Part shown: positions 49,505 through 64,000 of the stretch, in pieces | Layout: the number at the start of each line of letters is the position of its first letter | Position numbering within the stretch: the first letter of the stretch is position 1 | From: Spongiibacter nanhainus | GTDB taxonomy: Bacteria; Pseudomonadota; Gammaproteobacteria; Pseudomonadales; Spongiibacteraceae | NCBI RefSeq assembly: GCF_016132545.1 | Contig: NZ_CP066167.1 | Coordinates: forward strand, 647,001-711,000 | Direction of reading: 5' to 3' | Length of the DNA: 64,000 nt | Notes under the pieces: generated by a model | What the model saw: only the letters and a program-made list of their open reading frames with translations | What the model was told of the DNA's origin: nothing | Database searches by the model: none | Translations under genes and position numbers: made by a program

Positions 49505-52054
49505 TCAGGCGACGGCGATAAGATCCTCGGCCTTGGCCTTCTCTTCTTCAGTGGCGGGGCGAATCTGGCCGCGCTCTTGAACAAATACGATGTTGTTGTC
49601 GCCTTTGTCGGCGTTCACAAAGCTGCGGAAGCGCTTGACCTTGTCCTCGTTCTCAACGGTTGTCTTCCACTCGCACTGGTAGCTTTCAATGACGTGCTGC
49701 ATTTCCGCTTCCAGCTCGGCGGCAATACCCAGCGAATCGTCGATGATGACTTTGCGCAGGTAGTCCAGACCACCTTCGAGGTTTTCCATCCAGACTGATG
49801 TGCGTTGCAGGCGGTCTGCGGTGCGCACATAGAACATTAAGAAGCGGTCGATATATTTGAGCAGAGTGTCGGTGTCGATATCCGAAGCAAACAGATCGGC
49901 ATGGCGGGGTTTCATGCCGCCGTTACCGCAAACGTAGAGGTTCCAGCCCTTCTCGGTGGCGATAACACCCACATCTTTGCTCTGAGCCTCGGCGCACTCG
50001 CGGGTGCAGCCGGAGACGGCCATCTTCAGCTTGTGGGGGCTGCGCAGGCCTTTGTAACGGTTTTCCAGATCAATGGCCTGGCCGACACTGTCCTGTACAC
50101 CGTAACGGCACCAGGTAGAGCCTACGCAGGATTTTACTGTGCGCAGCGCCTTGCCGTAGGCGTGGCCGGATTCAAAGCCGGCGTCGATCAGCTCTTGCCA
50201 GATTAGCGGCAGCTGGTCGACAGTTGCGCCGAACATATCCACCCGCTGGCCCCCGGTAATTTTGGTGTAGAGGTTGTATTTCTTGGCAATAGTGCCCACG
50301 GCGATCAGGCCATCGGGGGTGACTTCGCCGCCCGCCATGCGGGGCACCACAGAGAAGGTGCCATCCTTTTGCATATTGGCAAGGAAGCGGTCGTTGGTAT
50401 CCTGCAGGCCGGCGTGCTGGGACTCCAGAATGTAGTCATTCCAGCAAGAGGCTAGGATGGAGGCGGCGGTGGGTTTGCAGATATCACAACCATAACCGCT
50501 TCCGTGCTTTTCCAGCAGCTCATCAAAGGACTTGATCTCACCGACACGGACCAGGTGGTAGATTTCCTGGCGGGTGTAGGGAAAGTGCTCGCAGATATCG
50601 GTATTGACCTCTACCCCAAGCTTGGTGAGCTCGGCGTTCATAACCTGACCCACCAGCGCCGTACAACCACCACAGGTGGTGGCCGCTTTGGTACAGGTTT
50701 TCAGGTCGCCGACAGTGTGGGCGCCTTCCTGAACCGCCGCGCAGATGTCGCCTTTGCTGACGTTGTTACAGCTACAAATCTGCGCGGTGTCCGGGAGTGC
50801 GTCCACCCCGAGGCCAACACTGGCACTGCCATCCAGTTGAGGGAGGATCATGGCCTCGGGGTGTTCGGGTAATTCAATGCTGTTCAGTGCGAATTGCAAC
50901 AGGTTGCCGTAATCGTCGGCGTCGCCGACCAGGACTGCGCCCAGTAAGTATTCGCCGCTTTCGCTGACCACAATCTTCTTGTACACCTCGGCCTGTTCGT
51001 CGATAAAGGTGTAGCTTTTAGCGCCGGGGGTGTTGGCGTGGGCATCGCCAATAGAGGCGACATCAACCCCCATCAGTTTCAGCTTGGTGCTCATGTCGGC
51101 ACCGGTGAAGGCCTTGCCCTCAATGCTGCCCAGTACGTGGTCGGCTGCGGCCCGCGCCATATCCCAGCCGGGAGCGATCAGGCCAAAGATGCGGCCGCCC
51201 CACAGGGCGCACTCGCCAATGGCGTAGATGCTGGGGTCCGAAGTCTGGCAGTTGTCGTTAATGACGATACCGCCGCGCTCGCCGATTTCCAGCTCGCTTT
51301 GGCGGGCCAGGGCATCTTGGGGGCGTATACCGGCGGAAAAGACGATTAGGTCTGTTTCCAGTACCTCGCCGTCGGCAAACTCCATTTTATGATTGCAGCT
51401 CTCACCGTCGCCGATATTTTGGGTGTTCTTCTGAGTGTGTACTTTTACGCCCAGGTCCTCTATTTTTCGACGCAACAGCGCTCCGCCGCCATCATCAACC
51501 TGCACCGCCATCAGGCGTGGGGCGAATTCGACGACGTTGGTTTCCAGTCCCAGGTCTTTAATGGCCTTGGCGGCCTCCAGGCCCAGCAGACCGCCGCCGA
51601 TGACGGTGCCCACTTTGGCGTTTTTTGCGGCGGCAGTGATTGCCTCCAAATCCTCTATAGTGCGGTAGACAAAGCAGTTGTCACGGTCGTGACCGGGCAC
51701 GGGGGGCACAAAAGGAAAGGAGCCGGTGGACAATACCAGCACATCGTAAGGGTATTCTTCGCCTTTATCGGTACTAACAACCTTGTTTGTGCGGTCAATG
51801 GCAGTGGCTTTTTCGCCGCTTTTTACCGCGATGTTGTTGGTGTCGTAAAAACCGTCTGCCACCATATTGAGTGACTCCGCCTGTCGGGTCTCAAACCAGG
51901 CAGTTAGGTGCACACGGTCGTAAGCGGGGCGGGGCTCTTCGCCAATAACGGTAATGGCGAAGCGGTCTCCGCCCTGGTTTTCAATCAGGCTCTCCAGAAA
52001 CTGGTGACCGACTGGGCCGTTGCCAACCACGAGTAGGCGTTGTTTCTCGGGCAT
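49505..52054 (-). CDS. nirB: Nitrite reductase (NADH) large subunit
   Basis: 849 residues. Domains in order: FAD/NAD(P)-dependent oxidoreductase (1-310; VVGNGPVGHQFLE, LSTGSFPF, GTVIGGGLLGLEAA); two BFD-like [2Fe-2S] regions (CSCNNVSKGDI...TCGGC near 430-465 and GYGCDICKP near 515); and the nitrite/sulfite reductase domains with siroheme/4Fe-4S ligands SCVGSTWCRYG and SGCTRECAEAQSKD. It catalyses cytoplasmic nitrite-to-ammonium reduction. The promoter upstream is sigma-54-like, which points to nitrogen control and an assimilatory role. No nitrate reductase gene is nearby. Confidence 0.97.
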   Translation of the reverse strand: MPEKQRLLVVGNGPVGHQFLESLIENQGGDRFAITVIGEEPRPAYDRVHLTAWFETRQAESLNMVADGFYDTNNIAVKSGEKATAIDRTNKVVSTDKGEEYPYDVLVLSTGSFPFVPPVPGHDRDNCFVYRTIEDLEAITAAAKNAKVGTVIGGGLLGLEAAKAIKDLGLETNVVEFAPRLMAVQVDDGGGALLRRKIEDLGVKVHTQKNTQNIGDGESCNHKMEFADGEVLETDLIVFSAGIRPQDALARQSELEIGERGGIVINDNCQTSDPSIYAIGECALWGGRIFGLIAPGWDMARAAADHVLGSIEGKAFTGADMSTKLKLMGVDVASIGDAHANTPGAKSYTFIDEQAEVYKKIVVSESGEYLLGAVLVGDADDYGNLLQFALNSIELPEHPEAMILPQLDGSASVGLGVDALPDTAQICSCNNVSKGDICAAVQEGAHTVGDLKTCTKAATTCGGCTALVGQVMNAELTKLGVEVNTDICEHFPYTRQEIYHLVRVGEIKSFDELLEKHGSGYGCDICKPTAASILASCWNDYILESQHAGLQDTNDRFLANMQKDGTFSVVPRMAGGEVTPDGLIAVGTIAKKYNLYTKITGGQRVDMFGATVDQLPLIWQELIDAGFESGHAYGKALRTVKSCVGSTWCRYGVQDSVGQAIDLENRYKGLRSPHKLKMAVSGCTRECAEAQSKDVGVIATEKGWNLYVCGNGGMKPRHADLFASDIDTDTLLKYIDRFLMFYVRTADRLQRTSVWMENLEGGLDYLRKVIIDDSLGIAAELEAEMQHVIESYQCEWKTTVENEDKVKRFRSFVNADKGDNNIVFVQERGQIRPATEEEKAKAEDLIAVA

Positions 52055-52563: not shown

Positions 52564-54036
52564 ATGTCGTCTTCGACCGTGAATGTGCTCGATATTAAGG
52601 AGCCGAAAATCCGACTGCTGCACCTCAGTTGGTTTGCCTTTTTTCTTACCTTTGTTGTGTGGTTTAACCACGCGCCGATGTTGGCCTCTATAAAGGAGGC
52701 TTTTGATCTCAGTACTCAGCAAGTTAAAGCGCTGATGATACTCAATGTGGCCTTGACCATTCCGGCCAGGGTGGTTGTCGGCATGTTGGTGGATCGTTTT
52801 GGTCCGCGGATTATCTTTAGCTGCTTGCTGGTGACTGGCGGCGCAATCTGTTGCTTTTTTGCGTTTGCCAATAGTTACGAGATGATTGCACTGCTGCGCT
52901 TCCTGATGGGCTTTATCGGCGCAGGCTTTGTGATTGGCATCCGTTTGGTGGGGGAGTGGTTTCCCGCCCGACAGGTCGGTTTGGCTGAGGGTGTCTATGG
53001 CGGCTGGGGTAACTTTGGTTCAGCGGCGGCGGCGATGAGCCTCCCTACCTTGGCGCTTATTTATGGTGGTGACGATGGCTGGCGCTATGCGATAGCCACT
53101 ACCGGTGTCATAGCTGCCTGCTACGGTGTGTTCTTTTATTGGCGCGCCCGCAATACGCCAAAAGGTTCTACCTACTTCAAGCCCAAGCGCTCCGGTGGTC
53201 TGGTGGTAACCAGTAAGGGTGACTTGTACTTTTATATTGCCATGTGCATCCCTATGTATCTGGCTTTGGCGGTGCTCACCTGGAAGTTGTCGCCAGCAAA
53301 TTTGGGCTTGCTCACCGACTTGGCGGCCATGGCTATCTATGTGGTGCTTGCGGTGTTGTTTGTTTTTCAGGTCAGCCAGATCCTGCGGGTAAACAGCGAT
53401 GTGCTAAAGGGCGTGCCTGTGCCCGAGGTGCAACGCTATGAATTTAAGCAGGTGGCGATATTGAATGTGTCCTACCTGGTGACCTTCGGCTCGGAGTTGG
53501 CGGTTGTCTCCATGTTGCCGCTATTCTTTATGGATACTTTTGACCTTTCTGCAGTAACGGCAGGGATGTTGGCGTCGGGCTTTGCCTTTATGAACCTGGT
53601 GGCGCGTCCCACTGGCGGCTTTTTCTCCGATAAGTTTGGCCGGCGCAAGTCGCTGTCAATTTTGGTGGCAGGGTTGGCCGTGGGTTACTTGTTGCTGAGC
53701 CAAATTACCTCAGAGTGGCCAATATGGTTGGCGGTCGTGGCCACAATGTGTTGTTCGTTCTTTGTGCAAGCCGGAGAGGGTGCGGTATTTGCCATCGTAC
53801 CCTTGGTGAAGCGGAGTATGACCGGACAGATTGCCGGCATGACTGGTGCCTACGGTAATGTGGGAGCGGTGAGTTTCCTGACGGCGCTAAGCTTTGTCAG
53901 TGACTCGGGCTTCTTTATGATTATTGCGGCCTGTGCCGGGGTTGTCTTTATTGCTGTGCAGTTTATGACTGAACCCCGGGGACATATTGCTGAATACAAT
54001 GATGATGGCAGCGTTGCCCTTATTGAGGTCAGTTGA
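52564..54036 (+). CDS. narK: Nitrate/nitrite transporter, MFS NarK/NasA type
   Basis: 490 residues with 12 predicted membrane segments. Signatures include [24 protein letters not shown] (MFS loop 2-3), [18 protein letters not shown] (nitrate-binding Arg region) and [20 protein letters not shown], the glycine-rich nitrate signature. A central insertion (about 205-280) carries two extra hydrophobic stretches, as in some assimilatory transporters. The sigma-54 promoter and divergent nirBD imply use in nitrate/nitrite assimilation. The kinase/phosphatase gene follows by 22 bp. Confidence 0.92.
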
Positions 54037-54058: not shown

Positions 54059-55780
54059 ATGAAGCATCTTGAAGCCGGTATGCGTTTGTCCGTCGCTCAG
54101 CACAGCGCTGCTGGGCGAAAGGACATCAATGAGGACAGTCTTGGGGTTCGGGTGCCGGATGGCTTGGCGCTGACCACTAAAGGTGCGGTCGCTGTTATTG
54201 CCGATGGGGTGTCTGCTGCTGAGGCGGGCAAAGAGGCCGCAGAAAGCTGTGTTACCGGCTTCCTGAACGACTACTTTTCCACCCCGGATATGTGGTCGGT
54301 CAAACGTTCCGCCCAGCAGGTGCTTAATGCCCTGAACCGCTGGCTTTTTGCACAGGGCCAGGGCTTTGCCCAGGCGGAGAAGGGTTACGTCTCGACGCTG
54401 AGCGCTATTGTGCTCAAATCCCGTACCGCGCATATTTTTCACGTTGGCGATAGCCGTATCTACAGGCTGCGCAGTGGCGTGCTGGAGCCCTTGACCCGTG
54501 ACCACGCCCGGCGAATAAATCGCCACCAAACCTATCTGACCCGGGCTATGGGCTTGGACGCCAGCCTGGATGTCGACTATCGCACTGTGGAAATCGAGCA
54601 GGGTGACCTGTTTCTGCTGACGACTGATGGTGTTCACGATGTTCTGGGGTCCGCAGAGATGGCGGAGCTAATCCCGGCAGAGGGAGGCCCCCTGGATGTC
54701 GCCTGCGAATCGCTGATTGCTTCCGCGCTGTCTGCCGGGAGTACAGATAACCTCAGTTGCCAGCTTGTGCGGGTGGATAACTTGCCTGTCCCGGAGGCGG
54801 ATGATGTCTACCGCAAGTTGGCTGAATTGCCTTTTCCTCCGCCTCTGGAGAAAGGTGCCGTGGTTGACGGCTTGCTGGTTGAGGCAGAGATTCATGCCAG
54901 TGCCCGCAGTCAGGTATATCGCGTCTATGACCCTGAGCGTCAACGACGCTATGTGATGAAAACCCCTTCACCTAACTACGTTGACGATCCCGCTTATATC
55001 GAGCGCTTTGTTCTGGAGGGGTGGATTGGTAGTCGGATAGACAACAAACACGTGGTCGCGGTCGTGCCAACACCGCATCGGCCCAGCTATTTATACTATC
55101 TGACAGAGTGGGTAGAGGGCGTGACGCTCAGCCAATGGATGAAACAGTATCCAGCGCCTGCCTTGGCCGATGCCCTGGCACTGATCACAGGGGTGGCGGA
55201 GGGTATTCAGGCGATGCATCGCAAGGGTACGCTTCACCAGGACATTAAGCCGGACAATATTCTTGTTCGCGAAGACGGCGTGCCGGTGATTATCGATTTT
55301 GGTTCCTGCTATGTGGCAAGCCTGGCGGAGATCGCCGCACCTATCGAGCGGGATCTCGTGTTGGGGACCGCCCAATATTCGGCACCAGAGCATGCACTTG
55401 GTCGCACAGCGGGGGCCGCAGCAGACCAGTTTTCCTTGGCCGTGATTGTGTTTGAGTGGCTGGCTGGCAAGCAGCCTTACGCCGGAAAGCTGGAGGGGAG
55501 CCAATCACTGGCGGCCTACTCGCGCCTTAAATACATTTCTCTATGTAGTTATAACCCCCATGTGCCCCTATGGATTGATGGCGCTATAAAAAAGGCGCTG
55601 AGCATAAACCCGGCGTCGCGCTATGGGGATATTGCGGAGTTTCTCCACGATTTAAAACACCCTAACCCGCGGTTTTCTACGGTTCACTATCAGCCATTTA
55701 TTGAGAAAAACCCCCTGCTGTTTTGGCAAGTGTTATCAGCGGTACTGTTTTTGCTTCTAATTTATAGCCATACAAATTGA
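54059..55780 (+). CDS. Bifunctional PP2C phosphatase / Ser-Thr kinase, membrane-anchored
   Basis: 573 residues. Residues 1-235 form a PP2C phosphatase: GRKDINEDSLGV, VIADGVSAAEAGKEA, HVGDSRIYRL, LLTTDGVHDVL and STDNLSC supply the metal-binding aspartates. Residues 265-530 form a Hanks-type kinase with Lys in YVMKTPSP, HQDIKPDNIL (catalytic loop, HQD for HRD), IIDFGSC (DFG) and APEHALG. A C-terminal membrane segment (LFWQVLSAVLFLLLIYSH) tethers it. Such fused enzymes recur beside nirBD/narK in pseudomonads and relatives, but their substrate is unknown. It is co-transcribed with narK by spacing. GAGGAG is far from the first ATG; a second start at 54080 is possible. Confidence 0.9.
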   Translation: MKHLEAGMRLSVAQHSAAGRKDINEDSLGVRVPDGLALTTKGAVAVIADGVSAAEAGKEAAESCVTGFLNDYFSTPDMWSVKRSAQQVLNALNRWLFAQGQGFAQAEKGYVSTLSAIVLKSRTAHIFHVGDSRIYRLRSGVLEPLTRDHARRINRHQTYLTRAMGLDASLDVDYRTVEIEQGDLFLLTTDGVHDVLGSAEMAELIPAEGGPLDVACESLIASALSAGSTDNLSCQLVRVDNLPVPEADDVYRKLAELPFPPPLEKGAVVDGLLVEAEIHASARSQVYRVYDPERQRRYVMKTPSPNYVDDPAYIERFVLEGWIGSRIDNKHVVAVVPTPHRPSYLYYLTEWVEGVTLSQWMKQYPAPALADALALITGVAEGIQAMHRKGTLHQDIKPDNILVREDGVPVIIDFGSCYVASLAEIAAPIERDLVLGTAQYSAPEHALGRTAGAAADQFSLAVIVFEWLAGKQPYAGKLEGSQSLAAYSRLKYISLCSYNPHVPLWIDGAIKKALSINPASRYGDIAEFLHDLKHPNPRFSTVHYQPFIEKNPLLFWQVLSAVLFLLLIYSHTN

Positions 55781-56176
55781 GACGTAGTTCTCAGTTTGTT
55801 CGAAAATGGCGCACTCGTTTTTCCCACCTTTTTATCCCCTTGTTTTATTTCGGTGCTTATTTTGCGTTCTTGTGATGCGCATGCAAAAAAGTGCGTGACC
55901 TCTTTGCGAGCAAAAATAGAGTTTTTATTGGTGCGCCCTGCTGTTTGTGCACTGGTGTTACGCAAAAAGGCGATTTAACCACTATTTTCGTTACCTTTGG
56001 TATCAGGTGGCATGGCGGTTGCAAAAAGTCCTGTGCAGCTCGGCGATGGAAACTGGCACAACGGAGTGAGAGTTAGGGCGGCTGTGGCGCTTTCGTCTCA
56101 CTCCGACAGACAAGTTCGGCGGGCATGTAAAGAAAAGCAATGAATACACTTTCTTAGGTGCTTTGGAGTAGCGGAG
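55781..56176. other. Control region of the DUF3034-haemoglobin operon
   Basis: 396 bp with no supported gene. It contains the sigma-54-type promoter at 56008-56023 and, 60-90 bp upstream, a run of GTGC/GCAC half-sites (including GTGCAC near 55956) that could be enhancer sites. The leader from the predicted start to the ATG is about 140 nt and purine-rich at its end. Confidence 0.65.
56008..56023 (+). promoter_or_regulatory. Sigma-54 promoter of the DUF3034-haemoglobin operon
   Basis: TGGCATGGCGGTTGCA matches TGGCACG-N4-TTGCW with a single change and the required GG-N10-GC spacing. It is the only strong promoter-like element I see before the four-gene operon. Confidence 0.83.
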
Positions 56177-57211
56177 ATGGTTAAGATGAATAGAAGCGGA
56201 ATCGCTCGTGGTTTATGTGTATCCCTCGTCAGTCTTGTACTGAGTGGGAATGTGGCAGCCGAGTTGTTTAATACCGGTAAGGTATTGGCTACCGGCGGCG
56301 TAAGTATGATTGATGGTGCAGGCGGTGGTGGTATTACGCCGTGGGCCACTATTACCGGTTACGCAACAAGAGATGGTGTAAACGGTAACGTGCACTACAC
56401 CTACGCCCCCCTGGCTAACTATACCCTTCACTCTGTGGGTGTGGCTGCAGGCTTGTGGGACAGGGTTGAGTTGTCCTATGCCAAGAGCTCGCTGACAACG
56501 GCTGCAACCTTTGACACGCTGGGTTTGGTCTTAGATACCGTGAGTGGTGTGCTAGGCGACTCTCTGGAAACAGGTATCGCGCCTTTTAATACCACTATTG
56601 ATATGGATGTAATCGGCGCCAAGGTCAGGGTGTTTGGTGAGGCAATATACGACTCGGACAACCTGATTCCCCAGGTCGCCATCGGTGCGTTCTACAAGAA
56701 AAACAAAAACGACAAGTTGTTGCACACCTTGAAGGCAGCTGAAACTGACGGCTGGGAATACTATATTTCAGCGACAAAAATCTTCTTCCCTATCAATACC
56801 TTGATTAACTTTACGGCGCGGTATACCGCGGCAAACCAGACGGGTCTAGTCGGTTTTGGGGGCCCTGATGGAACGGAAGAAGAAATTCGCCCGGAGGTCT
56901 CGATAGCCTATCTGCTTAATAAGCGGACAGCGATCGGTGCGGAGTGGGCAGCTCATGGCGATAACCTGAACGGTGAAAGCGTCAACCTGGGTGGTTTGAG
57001 TGTCACCGAGCTTCAGCCGATCCTGGAAACAGCGGGCTTGGGTAACTTGTCGGGCACATTGACCCAAAACGAAAGCGACTGGTTTGATGCTTTTGTCGCC
57101 TACTTCCCCAGTAAGAACCTTTCGATGACCTTCGCTTATGCCTGGTTGGGTGATATCACCATTACCCCTGATCAGCATGGCTTTTACCTATCATTGCAGG
57201 CTTCTTTCTAA
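56177..57211 (+). CDS. DUF3034 family outer-membrane-like protein
   Basis: 344 residues. A signal peptide ends near NVAAELF; the mature part is rich in alternating aromatic/hydrophobic beta strands and ends in Phe (YLSLQASF), typical of outer-membrane barrels. DUF3034-like features include TGGVSMIDGAGGGGITPWATITGYATRDG near the N-terminus and SVGVAAGLWDRVELSYAKSSL; the second half has AWLGDITITPDQHGFYLS. The function is not established. It leads an operon whose other products are an exported haemoglobin, an FMN protein and a PepSY membrane protein (gaps 36, 31 and 28 bp). A pore or docking role for that system is inference. Confidence 0.85.
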   Translation: MVKMNRSGIARGLCVSLVSLVLSGNVAAELFNTGKVLATGGVSMIDGAGGGGITPWATITGYATRDGVNGNVHYTYAPLANYTLHSVGVAAGLWDRVELSYAKSSLTTAATFDTLGLVLDTVSGVLGDSLETGIAPFNTTIDMDVIGAKVRVFGEAIYDSDNLIPQVAIGAFYKKNKNDKLLHTLKAAETDGWEYYISATKIFFPINTLINFTARYTAANQTGLVGFGGPDGTEEEIRPEVSIAYLLNKRTAIGAEWAAHGDNLNGESVNLGGLSVTELQPILETAGLGNLSGTLTQNESDWFDAFVAYFPSKNLSMTFAYAWLGDITITPDQHGFYLSLQASF

Positions 57212-57247
57212 GCAAAGACTGACGACCGAGATTAATAGGAGAGTTCT

Positions 57248-57712
57248 ATGAAACCGTTTAAATTAATGATTGCCTCCGTGTTTCTCATGTTGCTGGCAGT
57301 ATCGTCTGTCAGTCATGCCCAAACCGGTGAGACGAAAACCATTCCACCACTGGATAACGACGCCCTGGAGCAATGGGGTGGCGAGGAAGGCATCCGCAAC
57401 TGGGTAGAGAGTCTGTTCTACTACATTATGCTGGATAACCGCATCAATCACGTGTTCCGCGAGTTCGGCAACATTGAGCGGCAAATCTTCCTCAATACCC
57501 AGCTGGAGCAGTTGGTGTTGGGTGGTGACGTGGAGTACCAAGGTGCCAGCATGGCAGCGGCTCACGCCGATCTGGGCATTACCTTGACCCAGTTTAATGC
57601 GGTGGTCGAGGCGGCCTATAACGCTTGCGAGCGGGTGAATGTGACCTATGAGGCCTGCAACCAGCTCATCGCTGCGCTGGCACCCTACGAGCGTGTCATT
57701 GTAACCCGTTAA
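57248..57712 (+). CDS. Exported group 1 truncated haemoglobin
   Basis: 154 residues with a signal peptide (cleavage near SHA|QTGE), which is unusual because most truncated haemoglobins are cytosolic. The globin part begins EQWGGEEGIRNWVESLFYY. Likely haem-pocket residues are Tyr58 (B10), a CD-region Phe in NHVFREF, and proximal His106 in SMAAAHADLGIT; LGGDVEYQG is typical of group 1. Cys127 and Cys137 in the last helices could form a disulfide, fitting an oxidising compartment. Possible roles are NO dioxygenation, oxygen binding or electron transfer in the periplasm. Reduction would need a partner, and the FMN-binding and PepSY genes follow directly. Confidence 0.88.
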   Translation: MKPFKLMIASVFLMLLAVSSVSHAQTGETKTIPPLDNDALEQWGGEEGIRNWVESLFYYIMLDNRINHVFREFGNIERQIFLNTQLEQLVLGGDVEYQGASMAAAHADLGITLTQFNAVVEAAYNACERVNVTYEACNQLIAALAPYERVIVTR

Positions 57713-57743
57713 TCGAGTTTAATCGTTTACTAAGTGAGGAAGT

Positions 57744-58373
57744 ATGTCTTTCTTAGCAGGTATTGTGGGACGGGAGAGTAAAAGGGTGGCAGGAGCCGCC
57801 CTTGTTTCTCGAGACTCTATTGGTGAGAGCGCCAAGGGGGTGTTGACAATTGTCGGTGCGGTAATGGTGGTCTTATCTATCGTTATCATGTTTCCTCGGG
57901 CTGAATCATTTGAGCTCTATAAGACCTTTCAAACCCCCGAAGTTTTCTTGAATGAAGTATTTAGTAATGCCCCACCCAGCCCCCAAGTTTTAAATCTAAG
58001 CAGTAGTGATCAATCGGAGATTCAAAAAGTGTTCGGACGATCTTTCCCGCAACAGCGAGTGAGATATTGGACCGACGGAGATCGAACGGTGTGGATTTTT
58101 GACGACATCGGCAAAGAAGGTTATGTGCCGACGACATGTGGTTTTGTCATTAAAGATGAGGCTGTGGCAGCGGCGAAGGTGTTGATCTATCGCGAGTCCC
58201 GCGGTGAGCAGGTCGCTGAACCGTCTTTCCTGAATCAGTTGGCTGGTGCTAAAGCTGCAGGAAAAAAGCTCGATGTAGAGGTCGACAATATCACAGGTGC
58301 GACATTGTCCGTTCAAATGATGGAGCGCATGGCGCGCACCGCCCTGACGCTAGATGCGTTGACCAAAACATAA
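57744..58373 (+). CDS. Membrane-anchored FMN-binding protein
   Basis: 209 residues. One membrane segment (about 32-50, GVLTIVGAVMVVLSIVIMF) places the rest in the periplasm. The C-terminal FMN-binding domain carries the flavinylation motif DNITGATLSV, in which Thr187 would hold FMN by a phosphoester bond, as in RnfG/NqrC/NosR-type domains. A Cys in PTTCGFVIKDE precedes it. Flavinylation needs ApbE, which is not in this window. It is a plausible electron donor to the exported haemoglobin encoded just upstream. Confidence 0.87.
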   Translation: MSFLAGIVGRESKRVAGAALVSRDSIGESAKGVLTIVGAVMVVLSIVIMFPRAESFELYKTFQTPEVFLNEVFSNAPPSPQVLNLSSSDQSEIQKVFGRSFPQQRVRYWTDGDRTVWIFDDIGKEGYVPTTCGFVIKDEAVAAAKVLIYRESRGEQVAEPSFLNQLAGAKAAGKKLDVEVDNITGATLSVQMMERMARTALTLDALTKT

Positions 58374-58401
58374 CAGGCCTAAGTAAAAGCAGGGGATAAT
58401 C

Positions 58402-59367
58402 ATGTCTAACAATACAGTAAGGGCGATTGCTGATAGGCAGCCCTTATCGCAAACGGGAACAAAAAAATCTGAAGCTAATCCGGCTGTTTCGGCGAGCAGT
58501 ACGGCGTCGCCTGTAACAGCCGATGGCGTTGCATCAGGTGTAGGGCGCGACCAGAAACAAGCGCCAAGGTCGCCGCGGCCCAAGGCTGGCAAAAAAAATA
58601 TGTCGATGTTTTTGCGCCAGTGGCACCAACGCGGTGGACTATTTGCGTTTCTTTTCATGGGTTGGCTCGGTATCAGTGGATTTCTTCTTAATCAGAGCGC
58701 CTCGTGGGGGCTTGATGCTATTCGGGTCGGTTCACAAACCCTAATGGCCATGTATGGGCTGCATCCCGAAGTGCCTGACTCCGGCTACAAACAAGGAGAA
58801 CATTGGCTGGCAACGACCACTGAAAATACCGTGGTGGACGGTCATGTGTTGAACGCCCACATCCCATCGCCATTGGGTTTTGCGGCCGTGAATATCGATG
58901 GCAGTCAAACGCTGTTTGTTGCCACAAAAGATAAAGTCACAGTGTTGGATACTGATGGCCGTGTTATCGATGAACTCAGTGATTATTTGCTGCCTGTTGG
59001 CGCAGTCTCGGCCCTGGGAACTACCAGCAGTGGCGAGGACGGCGCCTCAACCATTGTGGTAAAGGGGGAGCGAAGCTACACCAGTCGGGACGGTATTGCC
59101 TGGGTCCCATTGCAGGATGATAGCGCTGTGTCGTGGTCCCAGCAGACGGCATTGAGTGAGGGAATTAAGTCACAGGTTGAGCCCTTTGCCAGGCCTACTG
59201 TGGCTTTGGAACAAGTCTTGATCGATTTGCACAGCGGGCGCCTTTTTGGTCGCGTTGGCCCGTGGGTTATCAATACAGTAGGTGTGATTTGCGTGTGGTT
59301 GTCCATAAGTGGTGTGTGGATGATGTGGCGTGCGAACAAGCGAAAAACCTCAGCACGTCGCCGTTGA
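58402..59367 (+). CDS. PepSY-associated membrane protein
   Basis: 321 residues. A polar, probably disordered cytoplasmic N-terminus of about 70 residues precedes the PepSY-associated helix (WHQRGGLFAFLFMGWLGISGFLLNQ, near 72-98). A periplasmic beta-rich domain (about 100-275) follows, then a second helix (WVINTVGVICVWLSISGVWMMW, near 288-309) before a basic tail. His75 near the first helix and His261 in LIDLHSGRLFG before the second are typical of PepSY_TM proteins, where paired histidines hold haem and move electrons across the membrane. It is the last gene of the operon. Confidence 0.82.
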   Translation: MSNNTVRAIADRQPLSQTGTKKSEANPAVSASSTASPVTADGVASGVGRDQKQAPRSPRPKAGKKNMSMFLRQWHQRGGLFAFLFMGWLGISGFLLNQSASWGLDAIRVGSQTLMAMYGLHPEVPDSGYKQGEHWLATTTENTVVDGHVLNAHIPSPLGFAAVNIDGSQTLFVATKDKVTVLDTDGRVIDELSDYLLPVGAVSALGTTSSGEDGASTIVVKGERSYTSRDGIAWVPLQDDSAVSWSQQTALSEGIKSQVEPFARPTVALEQVLIDLHSGRLFGRVGPWVINTVGVICVWLSISGVWMMWRANKRKTSARRR

Positions 59368-59390
59368 TTCAGCGACATCGATCAGTTCTA

Positions 59391-59406
59391 TGGCATCAAA
59401 ATTGCT
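59391..59406 (+). promoter_or_regulatory. Sigma-54-type promoter before the TPR gene pair
   Basis: TGGCATCAAAATTGCT has GG-N10-GC spacing and intact TTGCT, 24 bp after the PepSY stop. The next start codon is 228 bp downstream, so the leader would be long. No competing promoter is evident. Confidence 0.72.
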
Positions 59407-59633
59407 CAAGTAAGAAACAAGATAGGAAAGGTAAGTGGCGAGTGAGTGGAGCTGGGGTGCAGCTGTAAAAGCAAAGGTTGCTTCGAAGAGTGTTCGGCTC
59501 TTAAGTTCCACTAACGCATTGATTATGCGGGCTCTTCTTTACAGAGGCGCGCCACTGAATGGTTGCTAACGCGAAAGCGACGTGTACTTTCGCCGGTAAC
59601 TGCAATTACGGAGTTTACGTTGGAGGGCTCATA

Positions 59634-61616
59634 ATGGAGCATCATCCACATAGATCCACAACAAGTTGCGCAGCGCTTGCGCCGCTCTCCCGTATTCAAC
59701 AGATCCTACTTGTGATCTTGTTCACAGTTTTAAACACTGCTTCCTATGGAGAGGTACGTCACCCAATCAATGGCGATGCTGGGCCGGTATTTGAAGCGTC
59801 GCTTATCGTTGATGCAGATAGTGGTACTTTCTTAGAAGATGATAGTGATACTTCTTTGGAAGAGAAGGCCGAAGCGATTCTTTCTGAAATTAGTAGTGGA
59901 CGAAAGTTACTAGGGGTCGATGGATACATACCGGTTCGGGTGTATACGTCCCATTCATTAGCAGAAATCTTATTGCGTAAAGTCAGCGTGGAACTACAGG
60001 GCCAAGCGGATAGTGGGGACGAATTAGCAGAATCACGAGAATATTGGTACAGCGCGCGGGAAAGTGCGGCGCTCAGCGCAGGCGGGTTACACGAGCTGGG
60101 AACCTGGTGGCTTAAGCCAGGGACGTATTCGGTCAAGAGCAAGCTTGTAGCCGAAGACGATCTGGAGGCCGCGAATGTACCTCGTATCAATGTATCCAAA
60201 GAGATTAGCCTCAATGTCGACGGTGAGCCGCTTTATATAGAGGTGTCGCTGGATAGGCAGTCGAGCTTGTTCGGCTTAAAAGAAAAGTCGCAACTCAAGG
60301 TGCTGTCGCGAGAGTCGACAGATCAGGAGTCGCATGCGGTGCTGGAGCGGCGAGTAAGATACCACGTTCTAAGCGGCAATGAACTTCTCGCGAGTCTACT
60401 CGGCAGGAACGAAGTCGATGTTGACGCAGGAAGAATTAGCATAACAGAAGAAGTTGTAACAACTGTAAGTACTAACGATGCTGGAAGCGAGGGAGAAACT
60501 CGGCAGGCGCCTGGCGTCGAAAACTGGTACAGGCAATACCGAAGTGCGATGGCAGAACTGGCGGATGGCCGTGAGCCTGCGGCTCTAAAAGGACTTGTCG
60601 AAATTGCCAGTGCTCCAGTTGAGGATATAGTGGATGATGTGGAATCTGCACGACTACTGCAGGACCGTATCAACGTTGAGCTGGGGTTTTACTTTCTAAA
60701 GACGGGGCGAAACCTCAGCGCCGCGCAGCATTTTCGAGTCGTACGCCGCTTTAGTCCCTACGCCAAGAAAGCACTTATCGGCTTGGGGTGGGCTTTGCTG
60801 CGGCCAACTGAACGCAGTATCGATGTCGAAGGTAAGCCCCAAGCGGACTACTTATGGTCGGGCTCGGATGAGTATGTGGCGTGGGCACGTCGCAACGCGC
60901 CCTATCGCAATGCCTGGGCGGTGGGTTCTGGAGAAAAACTGGCGGACCTACGCAATGCCTTGTCACCGTGGCTGGAACTGGTGGCGGGTAACACTTTGAC
61001 AGCAGAGGTCCAGGAGGGTTTGCTGGTCATTCCCTATGCGCTAACCCATTTCGGTGCCTTGGATCGAGCTGAGGAGCGCTACCGCCGGGCTGATGACACG
61101 TTGTTGCAGGCCTCTCAACGCTTAAGCAATCTAAAAAGCGAAATACAGCAAGGCAAGCTTGTCGACGATCTGCTCGCATACTTTGCTCAGCAAGACAGTG
61201 GCTGGCGAGACTGTTTGTGTGGATTTGAGCGTGATGATGAGGAGGCACTGTCTTTAGTCATCGAAGCGCCTGCCGTTATGTTGGAGCTGGATGCACTTCG
61301 TCAATGGACAGTAGTACGGGAGGAGTTCCGGCGCTATCAGCAAAGTCTGAGTGAAGTACACAGTGATTCGATCAGCACGGGTAGTCGTGCGAGCCTATCC
61401 CATTTGCTGGCAAAGCTAGAAAGCCTAGAATCGCGTCTAACGGCGCGTATCGCCGAGCAATCCCAAGCGTTTAATGACGTAGCGGAAATGATAACCGCCG
61501 AGCATATTGAGCGCACAGAAGCCTATCTCGCCGAGTCACGATTTGCTCTAGCGCGACTTAATGAGCGCCGCAGGGAGCAGCTTCTGGGGTATAGCGAGCA
61601 GGGAGGTGAACGCTGA
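59634..61616 (+). CDS. Large exported helical repeat protein of unknown function
   Basis: 660 residues from ATG 59634, preferred over the in-frame GTG/ATG-type starts from 59559 because GGAGGG lies six bases upstream. A signal peptide (about 18-40, IQQILLVILFTVLNTASYG) is followed by a beta-rich half (40-290). An alpha-helical half with TPR-like segments comes next (NVELGFYFLKTGRNLSAAQHFRVVRRFSPYAKKALIGLGWALL; FGALDRAEERYRRADDTL). I do not recognise a named family. The stop overlaps the next start as TGATG, so the two products are coupled and probably form a complex. Confidence 0.75.
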   Translation: MEHHPHRSTTSCAALAPLSRIQQILLVILFTVLNTASYGEVRHPINGDAGPVFEASLIVDADSGTFLEDDSDTSLEEKAEAILSEISSGRKLLGVDGYIPVRVYTSHSLAEILLRKVSVELQGQADSGDELAESREYWYSARESAALSAGGLHELGTWWLKPGTYSVKSKLVAEDDLEAANVPRINVSKEISLNVDGEPLYIEVSLDRQSSLFGLKEKSQLKVLSRESTDQESHAVLERRVRYHVLSGNELLASLLGRNEVDVDAGRISITEEVVTTVSTNDAGSEGETRQAPGVENWYRQYRSAMAELADGREPAALKGLVEIASAPVEDIVDDVESARLLQDRINVELGFYFLKTGRNLSAAQHFRVVRRFSPYAKKALIGLGWALLRPTERSIDVEGKPQADYLWSGSDEYVAWARRNAPYRNAWAVGSGEKLADLRNALSPWLELVAGNTLTAEVQEGLLVIPYALTHFGALDRAEERYRRADDTLLQASQRLSNLKSEIQQGKLVDDLLAYFAQQDSGWRDCLCGFERDDEEALSLVIEAPAVMLELDALRQWTVVREEFRRYQQSLSEVHSDSISTGSRASLSHLLAKLESLESRLTARIAEQSQAFNDVAEMITAEHIERTEAYLAESRFALARLNERRREQLLGYSEQGGER

Positions 61617-64000
61617 TGCGCAGTCTTGGTAAGTGTCCCTCGTTCAGGTCTGGTTTGAGCAAGGCCTTCCTACACAGACCCCAGCCACCCGAGGCTACAC
61701 CGATGGCTACACTCGTGGGAAAGGGAGTCAGGTTGAGTTCGCTGTCCCGCTGTTGTGCGGTGTTCGCTGCTCAGCTCTTGTTAGTCGCCTGTCAAAGTGG
61801 CGTTCGTAGCGATCTGCAGAGCCAGACCATTGGCGAGCTGATAGACAACAGTGGTCTGCGTCCCGAGCAGATGGGAATTTCCGTCGAAAAGTCCGCGACA
61901 GCCTCAGTGACTGTAGCCAAGGAAAACACCCAGGCTGCGCTGGAACGCTCCACTGACGATGCTATCGATCACTACGACAAGGTCGTCTCCGTTGAGGCTC
62001 AGCCAGCCGTACGTGCCGAGTCGCTACGACGTTCCGCGGATCTTCGCATCGAGCGAGCAGAGCAGCTACAGATCGATGGTGAAGGGGGAGTCAGCACACA
62101 ACTGGATGCGGCCATAGAGGCTTATCAATCTTTGCTGGGGGACTACCGAGATTACACAAATCGTGCCCAGGTCTACTATCAACTTGCCCGCGCTTACGAG
62201 CTGTCGGGGGACCCGGAGCGCACCATTCACTACTTACTGGCGGCGTCAGAGGCGCCCTACAGCGGCGATATTGCCAGTGAGGCGCAATTCCGTGCCGCCG
62301 AACTACTCGTTCAGGCAAAACGATATCAGCGAGCAACAGAAGTCTATTCAGCCGTACTCTTAGACGAAAATACTGAGTACAGCGATATAGCCCTCTACAA
62401 GCGGGGCTGGAGTTTTTATCAGATGGCTGACTATCAAGCGGCATTGACCGATATGGGGGGGCTGTTTGAGCAGTTGTTAGCCAGCGAAACCACGACGGTA
62501 GCACTTCCTGATCTGGCATCTCTAAGCGCGGAAGAAGCGGTTTCCCCTATAGAGATAATCAAGGAAGAAAACAGAGAAATGGCAAGGGATGCGATGAGGC
62601 TGAGTGTCCTCAGCCTTGCTGCTGATACATCTCTGCTTCTGCAAGATAGCTTTACAACGCCCTCCGCACTCCGGTTTCGCGACGATATATACCACCAATT
62701 GGGTGACTACTTATTAGAAAAAGAGCGCTATACCGATGCGGCCGATGTCTATCGAGGCATGGTTACTGTCAAGGGGCCGAGTGTTGACTCCGCACCTTAT
62801 ATGGACAAAGCGATAGCGTCTCTGGAAGCTGGCGGCTTTGCTACCTTGGCTATTACCGCCAGAGAAGACTACATCGATCTGTTTGAGCCGTTGCTGGCGC
62901 CAGAGCAAGGGGGAGTCGGAGAGAGCGGTGCTACAGATGAAGTGGCAGAAAATTGGGTTCGCTATTGTCTCGACATAGCCGCTTGGCGCCACAAAGAAGC
63001 GAAGGAAACACCTGAAGCGGAAGCTGACAAGCGCGCGAGCCGTTTCCTGGTGGCTGCCCAGTGGCATGCGCGACTACTGGATAAGTTCCCAAGTCACGCT
63101 GAAGCCGCGCAAACGGCTGTGTATTACGGTGATGCCTTGTACAACGCCGGCGACCTGCAATCCGCTGCCCTAGCCTATGCTCGGGCGGGGTACCAATACC
63201 CGGACTTTGAGGGGGCTGCGGATGCCGCGCTGGCCTCGGTGAAAAGTTATCGAGCGCTCTTAGACCTGGACGATGCCACTAGTGATGCTGGGCTAACGTC
63301 ATTTTTTGAGGCTAGCCAGCGCTTCGTTAACCACTATCCAGACCACAAAGACGCCACAAGTGTGCAGCTGGGGAGCCTTAATGTCCTGTACAGCCAAGAA
63401 CAGTACGAGGCGCTTATTTCGGCTTCTGCCTCAGTGTTGAAGAACCCCGCCCTGTCAGAGGGCCAGCGCGCTGAGCTGCTCGCGATGGTCGCGGAATCGA
63501 ATGTGACTTTGCAGCAGTACTCGGCGGCGGAGCAGGCCTTTTCCAAGCTACTGGCGCTGGAGTCTATAGCGGGTACGGCGCGTGCAGATCAGGTTCGCGA
63601 AAGGCAGGCCTTTGCAGTATACCGCTACGCTGAAACGTTGCGGGACAGTGGCCAAGCTCAGCAACGCACGATCGCTGCTGGCAAACTGCTAGAGGTTGTC
63701 GCCTTGTCCAGGGATGAGTCGATACGGGAGTCCGCTCTGTATGACGCTGCAGTGCTCCGCTATGAGCTGGAGCAATGGCGGGACAGTGCGGCCTTACTTG
63801 CCCGTTTTATGACGATGTTCCCATCCAGTGACCTAGTGCCGGACGCCAGAGGTTTGATCGCGTCTGCCTATGAAGAGGATGGAAATTACGTCGCGGCAGC
63901 GGAAGCCTATCGTCGAATTGCAATGCAGCAAAAGGTCGACCGGGAAATCCGTTTCAACGCCAGCCTAAAGGCGGCTGATCTCTATCGCCGCGACAACAAT
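61616..64000 (+). CDS. Large TPR lipoprotein, 3' end outside the window
   Basis: The frame stays open for 795 codons to the right edge, so the gene is truncated by the window. A GGAGGTGA ribosome site precedes ATG 61616; ATG 61703, with GAGG upstream, would give a more normal 29-residue signal. The lipobox LLLVAC puts the lipidated Cys at residue 59 (or 30). The rest is tandem helical repeats: AIEAYQSLLGDYRDYTNRAQ, YYQLARAYELSGDPERTIHY, DALYNAGDLQSAALAYARAG, FSKLLALES, YEEDGNYVAAAEAYRRIA. This is a BamD/gliding-type TPR scaffold. It likely sits in the outer membrane facing the periplasm with the 59634 product. Confidence 0.82.
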   Translation, partial: MRSLGKCPSFRSGLSKAFLHRPQPPEATPMATLVGKGVRLSSLSRCCAVFAAQLLLVACQSGVRSDLQSQTIGELIDNSGLRPEQMGISVEKSATASVTVAKENTQAALERSTDDAIDHYDKVVSVEAQPAVRAESLRRSADLRIERAEQLQIDGEGGVSTQLDAAIEAYQSLLGDYRDYTNRAQVYYQLARAYELSGDPERTIHYLLAASEAPYSGDIASEAQFRAAELLVQAKRYQRATEVYSAVLLDENTEYSDIALYKRGWSFYQMADYQAALTDMGGLFEQLLASETTTVALPDLASLSAEEAVSPIEIIKEENREMARDAMRLSVLSLAADTSLLLQDSFTTPSALRFRDDIYHQLGDYLLEKERYTDAADVYRGMVTVKGPSVDSAPYMDKAIASLEAGGFATLAITAREDYIDLFEPLLAPEQGGVGESGATDEVAENWVRYCLDIAAWRHKEAKETPEAEADKRASRFLVAAQWHARLLDKFPSHAEAAQTAVYYGDALYNAGDLQSAALAYARAGYQYPDFEGAADAALASVKSYRALLDLDDATSDAGLTSFFEASQRFVNHYPDHKDATSVQLGSLNVLYSQEQYEALISASASVLKNPALSEGQRAELLAMVAESNVTLQQYSAAEQAFSKLLALESIAGTARADQVRERQAFAVYRYAETLRDSGQAQQRTIAAGKLLEVVALSRDESIRESALYDAAVLRYELEQWRDSAALLARFMTMFPSSDLVPDARGLIASAYEEDGNYVAAAEAYRRIAMQQKVDREIRFNASLKAADLYRRDNN

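Follow-up and report, generated by a model that had tools for sequence, protein, structure and literature searches.

Downstream of the nirB/narK region of Spongiibacter nanhainus lies a cluster of four genes that encode, in this order, a DUF3034 protein, a truncated haemoglobin with an export signal, a membrane-anchored protein with a flavin mononucleotide (FMN)-binding domain, and a PepSY membrane protein. The cluster is contained in a 64,000-nucleotide stretch of contig NZ_CP066167.1 (positions 647,001 to 711,000), referred to here as the window. We suggest that these proteins form a trans-envelope redox system in which a haem globin at the periplasmic face of the outer membrane, reduced through the PepSY and flavin components, would handle nitric oxide (NO) derived from nitrite; as a complete explanation we put this at even chances. 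Its architecture is well supported; the direction and route of the electrons, the part taken by a cupredoxin, and NO as the substrate are what we infer.

All four open reading frames (ORFs) were confirmed on the + strand; they run in one direction and fill positions 56177-59367, with intergenic gaps of 36, 31 and 28 bases. The Pfam scores are to be compared with cut-offs of 25 (DUF3034), 22 (FMN_bind), 28.8 (PepSY_TM) and 21 (Bac_globin).

56177..57211, + strand: DUF3034 protein with a signal sequence and a predicted outer-membrane beta-barrel (Pfam PF11231, 278.5 bits; C-terminal Phe)
57248..57712, + strand: predicted exported group-1 truncated haemoglobin with proximal His106, Phe at B10 and Cys127/Cys137 (phmmer against PDB, E 2.3e-8; trHbN fold)
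57744..58373, + strand: membrane-anchored FMN_bind protein with the flavinylation motif DNITGAT (Pfam FMN_bind, 24.6 bits)
58402..59367, + strand: PepSY_TM membrane protein with the candidate haem histidines H75, H134 and H277 (Pfam PepSY_TM, 50.7 bits)

Conservation and phylogenetic spread of the cluster

Loci from other genomes (numbered with the prefix L) were scored by hidden Markov model matches on all reading frames. The window genus, which as sampled takes in Zhongshania (named loci L155, L160, L161), amounts to 18 genomes including that of S. nanhainus. DUF3034 is encoded by 12 of these, S. nanhainus included, and in each of the 12 loci the order DUF3034-globin-FMN-PepSY is identical. 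A globin of the exported type (E < 1e-42) is found in exactly the same 12 genomes; among the six genomes without DUF3034, five show weaker globin matches only (1e-22 to 1e-25) and one shows none. A sample of named genomes was formed by the best 80 of at least 560 DUF3034-encoding stretches (at least 596 stretches matched) and hence lies near the window's sequence; one of its members, L155, is the same genome as L089. A globin gene occurs within 2.5 kb of DUF3034 in 78 of these 80 loci, and the full four-gene set, with its order kept, in nine (three Zhongshania, Stenotrophobium, a Nevskia metagenome-assembled genome (MAG), Panacagrimonas, Solimonas, a gammaproteobacterial MAG and a Salinisphaerales MAG).

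At class level, 18 of 369 genomes encode DUF3034, and at phylum level 39 of 398 do. Among the 45 extra-genus loci listed from the searches of class, phylum and relatives, 39 carry a globin gene inside 1.5-kb flanks; those without one nearby are L018 and L026-L030, of which L026-L029 form a single clade. The DUF3034 frame at L014:1489-2511 is broken by one TAG. When 121 DUF3034 sequences were placed in a tree, the 12 rows of the FMN-type variant (the nine named loci and three window-genus rows) fell on one side of a branch with a support of 100/100. Since this single clade spans Zhongshania, Nevskiaceae and uncultured gammaproteobacteria, the cassette is either old or has been transferred between families.

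The existence of the four genes and their being kept together are confirmed by these data. Independent scattering of the genes among relatives, which the original prediction had named among the observations that would speak against it, is not what was found. Nevertheless, that prediction, which is partly supported overall, drew the boundaries of the system differently: the conserved set of four stands, but the core, widespread unit is DUF3034 together with the exported globin, the FMN and PepSY proteins are a clade-specific addition, and a cupredoxin, a downstream gene stretch and natural globin-barrel fusions had been overlooked.

The globin and its haem site

Although the window globin scores only 18.2 bits against Pfam Bac_globin, short of the cut-off, it matches group-1 truncated haemoglobins of known structure in phmmer searches, and its predicted structure (mean pLDDT 77.3) matches trHbN of Mycobacterium tuberculosis (PDB 1idr/2gkm) with a Foldseek TMt of ~0.78. 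The N-terminus reads, by eye, as a Sec-type signal (MKPFKLMIASVFLMLLAVSSVSHAQ). Export signals were assigned to 58 of 60 DUF3034-linked globins (29 with a lipobox, 29 of Sec type) by a simple in-house rule that takes the best-looking start codon and hence leans toward finding signals. The rule erred in class or place for L034, L039 and L098, and the two globins that it missed (L025, L097) look exported by eye. An Asp after the lipobox Cys is seen in none of the 29 lipobox globins.

Each of the 60 globins possesses exactly one pair of cysteines, as would fit an oxidising compartment: C88/C95 in 48, and C127/C137 in 12, all of which come from the window genus. The 78 globins of the named loci comprise 64 with C88/C95 (nine of them fusions), nine with C127/C137, which are exactly the FMN-type ones, and five with neither pair (L185, L189, L193, L196, L223). 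When the globin profile was run against 340 genomes of the class, it matched in 119; among the 30 loci listed from these, 16 globins carry a Cys pair and, judged by eye, an export signal as well, while 14 have neither pair, two of which (L257, L260) look exported. Nine of the 16 adjoin DUF3034 and seven do not, and no common neighbour of these seven exported C88/C95 globins (L243, L244, L246-L249, L251) was seen by eye.

The proximal His106 is conserved in 60 of 60 rows and in 69 of the 78 named-locus rows, the remaining nine being fusion rows that were trimmed to the barrel end. At the positions that correspond, by the numbering of the T. pyriformis chain, to B10, E7 and E11, the first of them backed by PDB titles, the window globin has Phe57, Gln79 and Asn83. 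These sequence data support the view, already part of the original prediction, that the globin is an exported, extracytoplasmic truncated haemoglobin and not a cytosolic one.

The predicted DUF3034 barrel and natural globin-barrel fusions

The globin and DUF3034 are a single ORF in nine of the 80 named loci. Eight of these fusions belong to Oxalobacteraceae; the ninth comes from a MAG labelled Burkholderiaceae and falls with Pseudoduganella. A fused globin-barrel protein occurs, for example, in Pseudoduganella violacea, and unfused rows are interspersed among the fusion rows in the DUF3034 tree. As judged from the three sequences seen in full, the fusion consists of one signal sequence, the globin, a short linker, and then the barrel without a signal of its own. 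An AlphaFold2 model of one fusion, built from a 68-row alignment, shows a globin plus 12 strands (mean pLDDT 80.1, pTM 0.73); ten-residue blocks of the barrel lie mostly at pLDDT 77-91, with one at 65, and the linker is partly below 50. Foldseek matched one half of this model to trHbN-type globins and the other half to NanC (TMt 0.67), OmpG, FapF and other porins. The hallmarks of an outer-membrane beta-barrel, i.e., a signal sequence, an even number of strands and the barrel fold, are found together in DUF3034, the fold being judged on the homologous fusion model. DUF3034, described at the outset as outer-membrane-like, is hence predicted to be a 12-strand outer-membrane barrel.

The FMN and PepSY proteins as candidate electron suppliers

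The FMN protein displays, by eye, one N-terminal membrane helix. Its flavinylation motif, which the original prediction had recognised as TGAT, is invariant as [ST]GAT in all 14 aligned FMN proteins; the protein thus has the [S/T]GA[S/T] signature of a flavinylation substrate in a segment judged by eye to be extracytosolic. The PepSY_TM assignment of its partner rests on two matches (PF03929/PF16357; 50.7 and 30.3 bits, both over the cut-off), and the three histidines put forward as candidate haem ligands, H75, H134 and H277, are invariant across 14 aligned rows. A gene for the flavin transferase ApbE adjoins the cluster, no farther than ~0.5 kb after PepSY, in five of the 13 genomes with the FMN-type variant (L156, L157, L158, L159, L162; assigned by Pfam for three of the five).

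Within the order, 56 of 244 genomes have a match to the FMN-protein profile. The loci L136-L153 (e.g., L142, L148, L149, L153) display a porin-FMN_bind-PepSY arrangement, which gives the order a second system of the FMN-PepSY kind; the window genus-mates L149 and L150 have both this set and the globin cluster in the same genomes. The Stenotrophobium FMN protein (L156:11438-11986) has a twin-arginine-like start (SRRAFIR) instead of the membrane anchor of the window protein.

Cupredoxins and the downstream gene stretch

A cupredoxin belongs to the gene set. The FMN-type clade is linked to a cupredoxin different from that of other DUF3034 lineages: in Zhongshania it is a two-domain protein encoded after PepSY, in the window genome the two-domain cupredoxin is found ~9 kb farther on, and in Stenotrophobium, Panacagrimonas and Solimonas an OmpA-cupredoxin fusion is linked to the cluster. 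Between the cluster and its cupredoxin, the window genome encodes ORF685, ORF1017, a TPR protein, ORF108, ExbB, ExbD, ExbD and TonB, the Exb/TonB names being based on inspection of the sequences by eye and one sub-cut-off TonB_C match. The first two genes lie in the window, and the stretch ends ~5.4 kb beyond it, at the window-equivalent position 69368.

59559..61616, + strand: ORF685, exported-looking, first gene of the stretch that runs to the cupredoxin (no Pfam family over cut-off; homologues by the cluster in L086 and L155-L159)
61616..64000, + strand: ORF1017, with a lipoprotein-like start, second gene of this stretch, running past the window end (homology in relatives)

The stretch from ORF685 to the cupredoxin recurs whole in L086 and L155 and partly in L156-L159; ORF685, ORF1017 and the TPR gene were not found in the retrieved flanks of L088 and L160-L163. 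Exported-looking low-complexity proteins with Leu/Gly/Val-rich repeats recur, as judged by eye, in the vicinity of these clusters, namely in L156 (15143-15808), L155 (8621-9133 and 15908-16303) and the S. nanhainus genome itself (C1:724036-724812).

In the non-FMN lineages, the cupredoxin has invariant H108, C144, H147 and M150 in 11 aligned rows. This amicyanin-like protein and a GGDEF-EAL protein were considered as fixed members of the window system and rejected; they mark other DUF3034 lineages.

Nitrogen genes in the neighbourhood

Two genes of nitrate/nitrite metabolism lie upstream of the cluster in the window.

49505..52054, - strand: assimilatory nitrite reductase of the NirB type, context (named from its sequence; 67% identical homologue next to the cluster of Solimonas L162)
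52564..54036, + strand: NarK nitrate/nitrite transporter, context (NCBIfam TIGR00886, 321 bits, cut-off 311.7)

The gene after narK (window 54059-55780) encodes a PP2C phosphatase fused to a protein kinase, which shares 62.7% identity with its L086 counterpart.

In the window, L086 and Solimonas, the cluster has NirB and NarK as neighbours. Other FMN-type loci have nitrogen-type regulators close by. ANTAR proteins are encoded at L156, L157, L159 and L163, and L157 and L159 also have a NasS-like (NMT1_2) protein. L156 and L157 further possess a member of the Rrf2 family whose best NCBIfam match is NsrR (114 bits, under the equivalog cut-off of 182) and in which C-x4-C-x5-C is present. Taken together, at least one nitrate/nitrite/NO gene (NirB/NarK, ANTAR/NasS-like or NsrR-like) occurs in seven of 13 distinct FMN-type genomes and in one of 107 other DUF3034 loci (Fisher p 2e-7, ancestry ignored), the latter not all being distinct genomes and the flanks extending up to 10 kb, or less at contig ends. 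With the named loci only, the contrast is five of nine versus one of 71 (p 3e-5). The sole positive among the 107, L168, has a substrate-binding protein that is 30% identical. The six FMN-type genomes without such a gene are five of the Zhongshania type and Panacagrimonas; in the genome of L159, NirB is additionally found on the cluster's contig, ~11 kb away.

The original prediction had placed the cluster in a reactive-nitrogen setting on two grounds, proximity to nirBD/narK and a shared promoter type. The first holds in so far as nitrogen genes recur beside the variant in different families; the second is not supported, no common promoter or operator having been found. FNR-like patterns with up to two mismatches amount to 28 sites in the window against 18.0 (standard deviation 4.4) expected by chance, but none lies in 55781-56176, and a sigma-70 scan of 55700-59700 gave two hits against 4.1 expected. 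Fur, FNR, NarL, CueR-like and NsrR consensus sites, sought in the sequence preceding DUF3034 for 21 rows from 18 distinct genomes, beat the best of 40 shuffles in only two of 105 comparisons; both are NsrR matches (L009, L011) and are not used as support. A promoter or operator shared with narK/nirB was rejected.

ANTAR/NasT-type leaders in relatives

The layout described for ANTAR antiterminators comprises a pair of small hairpins upstream of a terminator, with loops of six nucleotides that have A in the first and G in the fourth position (PMC3369931), and the NasS-NasT pair is described as answering to nitrate/nitrite (PMC3795266). Two such A1-G4 hexaloop hairpins precede DUF3034 in L156 and L159, the second at the terminator tip (0 of 300 shuffles in each case). 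The strict leader pattern occurs at five places in the FMN-type, nas and window sequences, which together amount to 421,822 bases: ahead of DUF3034 (L156, L159), ahead of the OmpA-cupredoxin gene and of the ORF685 homologue (both L157), and, in L156, ahead of an exported low-complexity gene that is followed by OmpA-cupredoxin. It is absent from the 1,731,686 bases of 104 other DUF3034 loci, and it was not found within ~1.5 kb upstream of nirB in any of five relatives. We infer that the gene groups preceded by these leaders are operons.

In an alignment of six leaders, every P1/P2 pair is kept; one pair varies (A-U, C-G, U-A), the others are invariant, and when the terminator is included there are two covarying pairs, a count to be read against 48 of 500 shuffles. 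A covariance model built from these six leaders (L156, L157 and L159 in training, L158 and L162 not) identified leaders ahead of DUF3034 in L156, L157, L158, L159 and L162 at 41-79 bits, the untrained ones scoring 42.3 (L158) and 41.4 bits (L162), with a further untrained match of 28.7 bits ahead of OmpA-cupredoxin in L162. L157, L158 and L162 depart from the pattern in the letters or the size of their loops. The best score in 99 control loci (1,662,810 bases) was 19.9 bits (E 0.14); Rfam gave nothing at the gathering threshold on L156, L157 and L159, and a weak match ahead of nirB in L277 (22.5 bits) is not used as support. Two extra ANTAR-type leaders close to the cluster, L156:8250-8302 (-) with 39.9 bits, ahead of a 153-amino-acid exported-looking protein without a Pfam family, and L157:5747-5801 (-) with 60.9 bits, indicate that more operons may belong to the regulon.

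A model for the proposed envelope redox system

We envision a mechanism in three steps. The exported globin, whether lipid-anchored, soluble or fused, would work together with the 12-strand DUF3034 barrel, as sequence, natural fusion and structural model suggest; the barrel may admit a small ligand or may merely anchor the globin. The PepSY protein, as a putative b-type cytochrome, would take up electrons at the inner membrane and pass them on to FMN attached by ApbE to the TGAT motif, from where they would reach the globin haem either directly or via the linked cupredoxin. Because the regulation in relatives is of the nitrogen type, the reduced globin would then remove, outside the cytoplasm, NO or other reactive nitrogen species arising from nitrate/nitrite use. 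A more far-reaching proposal, which we regard as tentative and hold to be somewhat doubtful, is that this represents a new class of envelope machine with a barrel-tethered or barrel-fused globin and a relay of PepSY haem, covalent flavin and blue copper, consuming NO extracytoplasmically before it enters the cell, and, in the Nevskiaceae, switched on together with the cupredoxin and the TPR module by a dedicated NasST-type antiterminator.

A number of observations weigh against an NO-consuming redox system of this kind. NirB/NarK are near the cluster in only two of seven window-genus genomes with wide flanks (the window and L086, not L087, L088, L089/L155, L160 or L161), and the nitrogen association is confined to one clade of shared ancestry, so that its cases are not independent and the p-values overstate it. 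There is no ANTAR leader in the window or the searched genus-mates, nor in L163, and the single ANTAR protein of the window genome is encoded far from the cluster. L158 has the leader and no nitrogen gene in its retrieved flanks; the number of covarying P1/P2 pairs is not above shuffles (351 of 500). The nas region of the L157 genome has a NasST-like pair of its own, 36-38% identical to that of the cluster; since the latter is thus a paralogue, its ligand may not be nitrate. No ApbE gene is near the window cluster, three being found elsewhere in the genome. Related FMN-PepSY pairs follow porins without any globin, and the module may hence be a general reductase able to serve other ends. The B10 Tyr of trHbN is present in only two of 60 globins (Leu/Val/Ile/Phe in 55, Phe in the window protein), and loss of this Tyr in trHbN mutants reportedly would weaken O2 holding and NO dioxygenation. 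Finally, a Bradyrhizobium nasT mutant is described as expressing narK-bjgb-flp more strongly, and not less, under denitrifying conditions (PMC6759348).

Iron or haem acquisition is the first alternative that needs to be considered: PepSY and the FMN protein would serve as a periplasmic ferric (or haem-iron) reductase, the barrel as a channel and the globin as a haem shuttle or oxygen guard, with ExbB/ExbD/TonB powering uptake. Genes for ExbB/ExbD/ExbD/TonB do occur in the downstream stretch of the window genome, L086 and L155, and the gene for a related FMN protein is preceded by a porin-like gene in 14 of the 18 loci retrieved, three of the 18 having a FeoB-type gene (Pfam confirmed one porin and one FeoB). 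PepSY-like flavinylated clusters have also been tied to iron (PMC8238504). We nonetheless judge this explanation unlikely: the regulators neighbouring the clade are of the nitrogen type, no Fur-like site above shuffles was found ahead of DUF3034 in the 21 rows, and FMN and PepSY proteins of the window kind are missing from 71 of the 80 named loci (TonB was not searched there). Moreover, TonB receptors have a larger, plugged barrel, unlike the 12-strand barrel of the modelled DUF3034 relative.

Likewise improbable, in our estimation, is a role as a ligand sensor, in which the exported globin-DUF3034 pair would sense O2 or NO and inform a membrane c-di-GMP enzyme, and FMN-PepSY would only reset the globin. 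Such an enzyme is indeed a frequent companion in other lineages. Among 33 wide extra-genus loci, 28 carry the globin within 4.5 kb, 23 the cupredoxin and 21 the GGDEF-EAL protein, and in 19 all three are united; the arrangement is also found on annotated plasmids, two of Caballeronia and one of Novosphingobium, and both GGDEF-EAL proteins tested with Pfam have dCache_3 and HAMP domains. However, no GGDEF-EAL protein of this type was found near the FMN-type clusters, and in 39 of the 80 named loci the globin is the only one of the families sought within 6 kb.

Electron export to O2, with the PepSY/FMN/cupredoxin relay feeding a globin that reduces O2 at the outer membrane, would also account for an exported globin with a barrel and redox carriers. 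It has a precedent in cable bacteria, for whose globin-cytochrome fusions such a role is proposed and in which truncated globin domains outside the cytoplasm are described (PMC11976967), and at least one relative (L160) has a cytochrome c gene ~2.8 kb upstream. The nitrogen-type regulation in relatives speaks against it, and we assign it a small probability. That DUF3034-globin and FMN-PepSY are two unrelated pairs in chance proximity, as their separate occurrence would allow, is very improbable given the order kept in 12 of 12 genus loci and six other taxa, and given that one class of leader precedes the DUF3034, cupredoxin and TPR-module genes in relatives.

Relation to known systems

To our knowledge, the known globin-reductase pairs are cytoplasmic, among them the globin-flavoprotein systems Hmp and Bjgb-Flp, of which the proposed system would be a periplasmic counterpart. 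The closest working parallel to the proposed NO-handling redox system is narK-bjgb-flp-nasC of Bradyrhizobium, of which it would be the envelope counterpart. There, the flavoprotein Flp feeds the globin Bjgb, NarK adjoins, the setting is nitrate assimilation, and narK and bjgb are predicted to be preceded by NasT hairpins (PMC6759348); Bjgb is cytoplasmic, whereas the window globin is predicted to be exported and linked to a barrel, and the candidate donor is a membrane FMN_bind protein. With trHbN (1idr/2gkm), the window globin shares the fold and the proximal His; it differs in its export, its paired cysteines and its lack of the B10 Tyr.

The PepSY-like flavinylated gene clusters reported by Meheust et al. 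in 2021 (PMC8238504) have in common with the window system PepSY_TM and a predicted extracytosolic [S/T]GA[S/T] ApbE substrate, and with its relatives an ApbE gene nearby. In contrast to the window, their usual partners are DUF2271 and DUF4198; the word 'globin' is absent from the main text and DUF3034 is not mentioned. 'Globin' was also not found in the main text of PMC11334425. The pentahaem cytochrome-truncated globin fusions of cable bacteria (PMC11976967) resemble the window system in having an extracytoplasmic globin as a proposed electron acceptor but differ in that the globin is fused to a multihaem cytochrome and not to a barrel, and no flavin or PepSY partner is mentioned in the available part of that paper. 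As far as can be seen from PMC3369931 and PMC3795266, the relatives' leaders have the layout of ANTAR/NasT leaders, but sit ahead of globin-barrel, cupredoxin and TPR-module genes, and some of their loops deviate. In the open-licence PMC literature, no description of a globin-barrel plus PepSY/flavin combination was found, and searches for flavinylation with PepSY and globin, for truncated haemoglobins with methylamine utilization and GGDEF, and for group-1 truncated haemoglobins with the outer membrane, returned nothing; DUF3034 is mentioned once in each of two papers.

The system belongs with the PepSY-flavin electron-transfer systems, although the globin-barrel unit in itself may deserve more. 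An exported globin as its partner provides DUF3034, a family of unknown role, with a testable task, and the natural globin-barrel fusion makes it possible to study this pairing with one protein. The globin would give orphan PepSY-flavin systems a terminal acceptor and would link redox chemistry in the envelope to nitrate/NO signalling.

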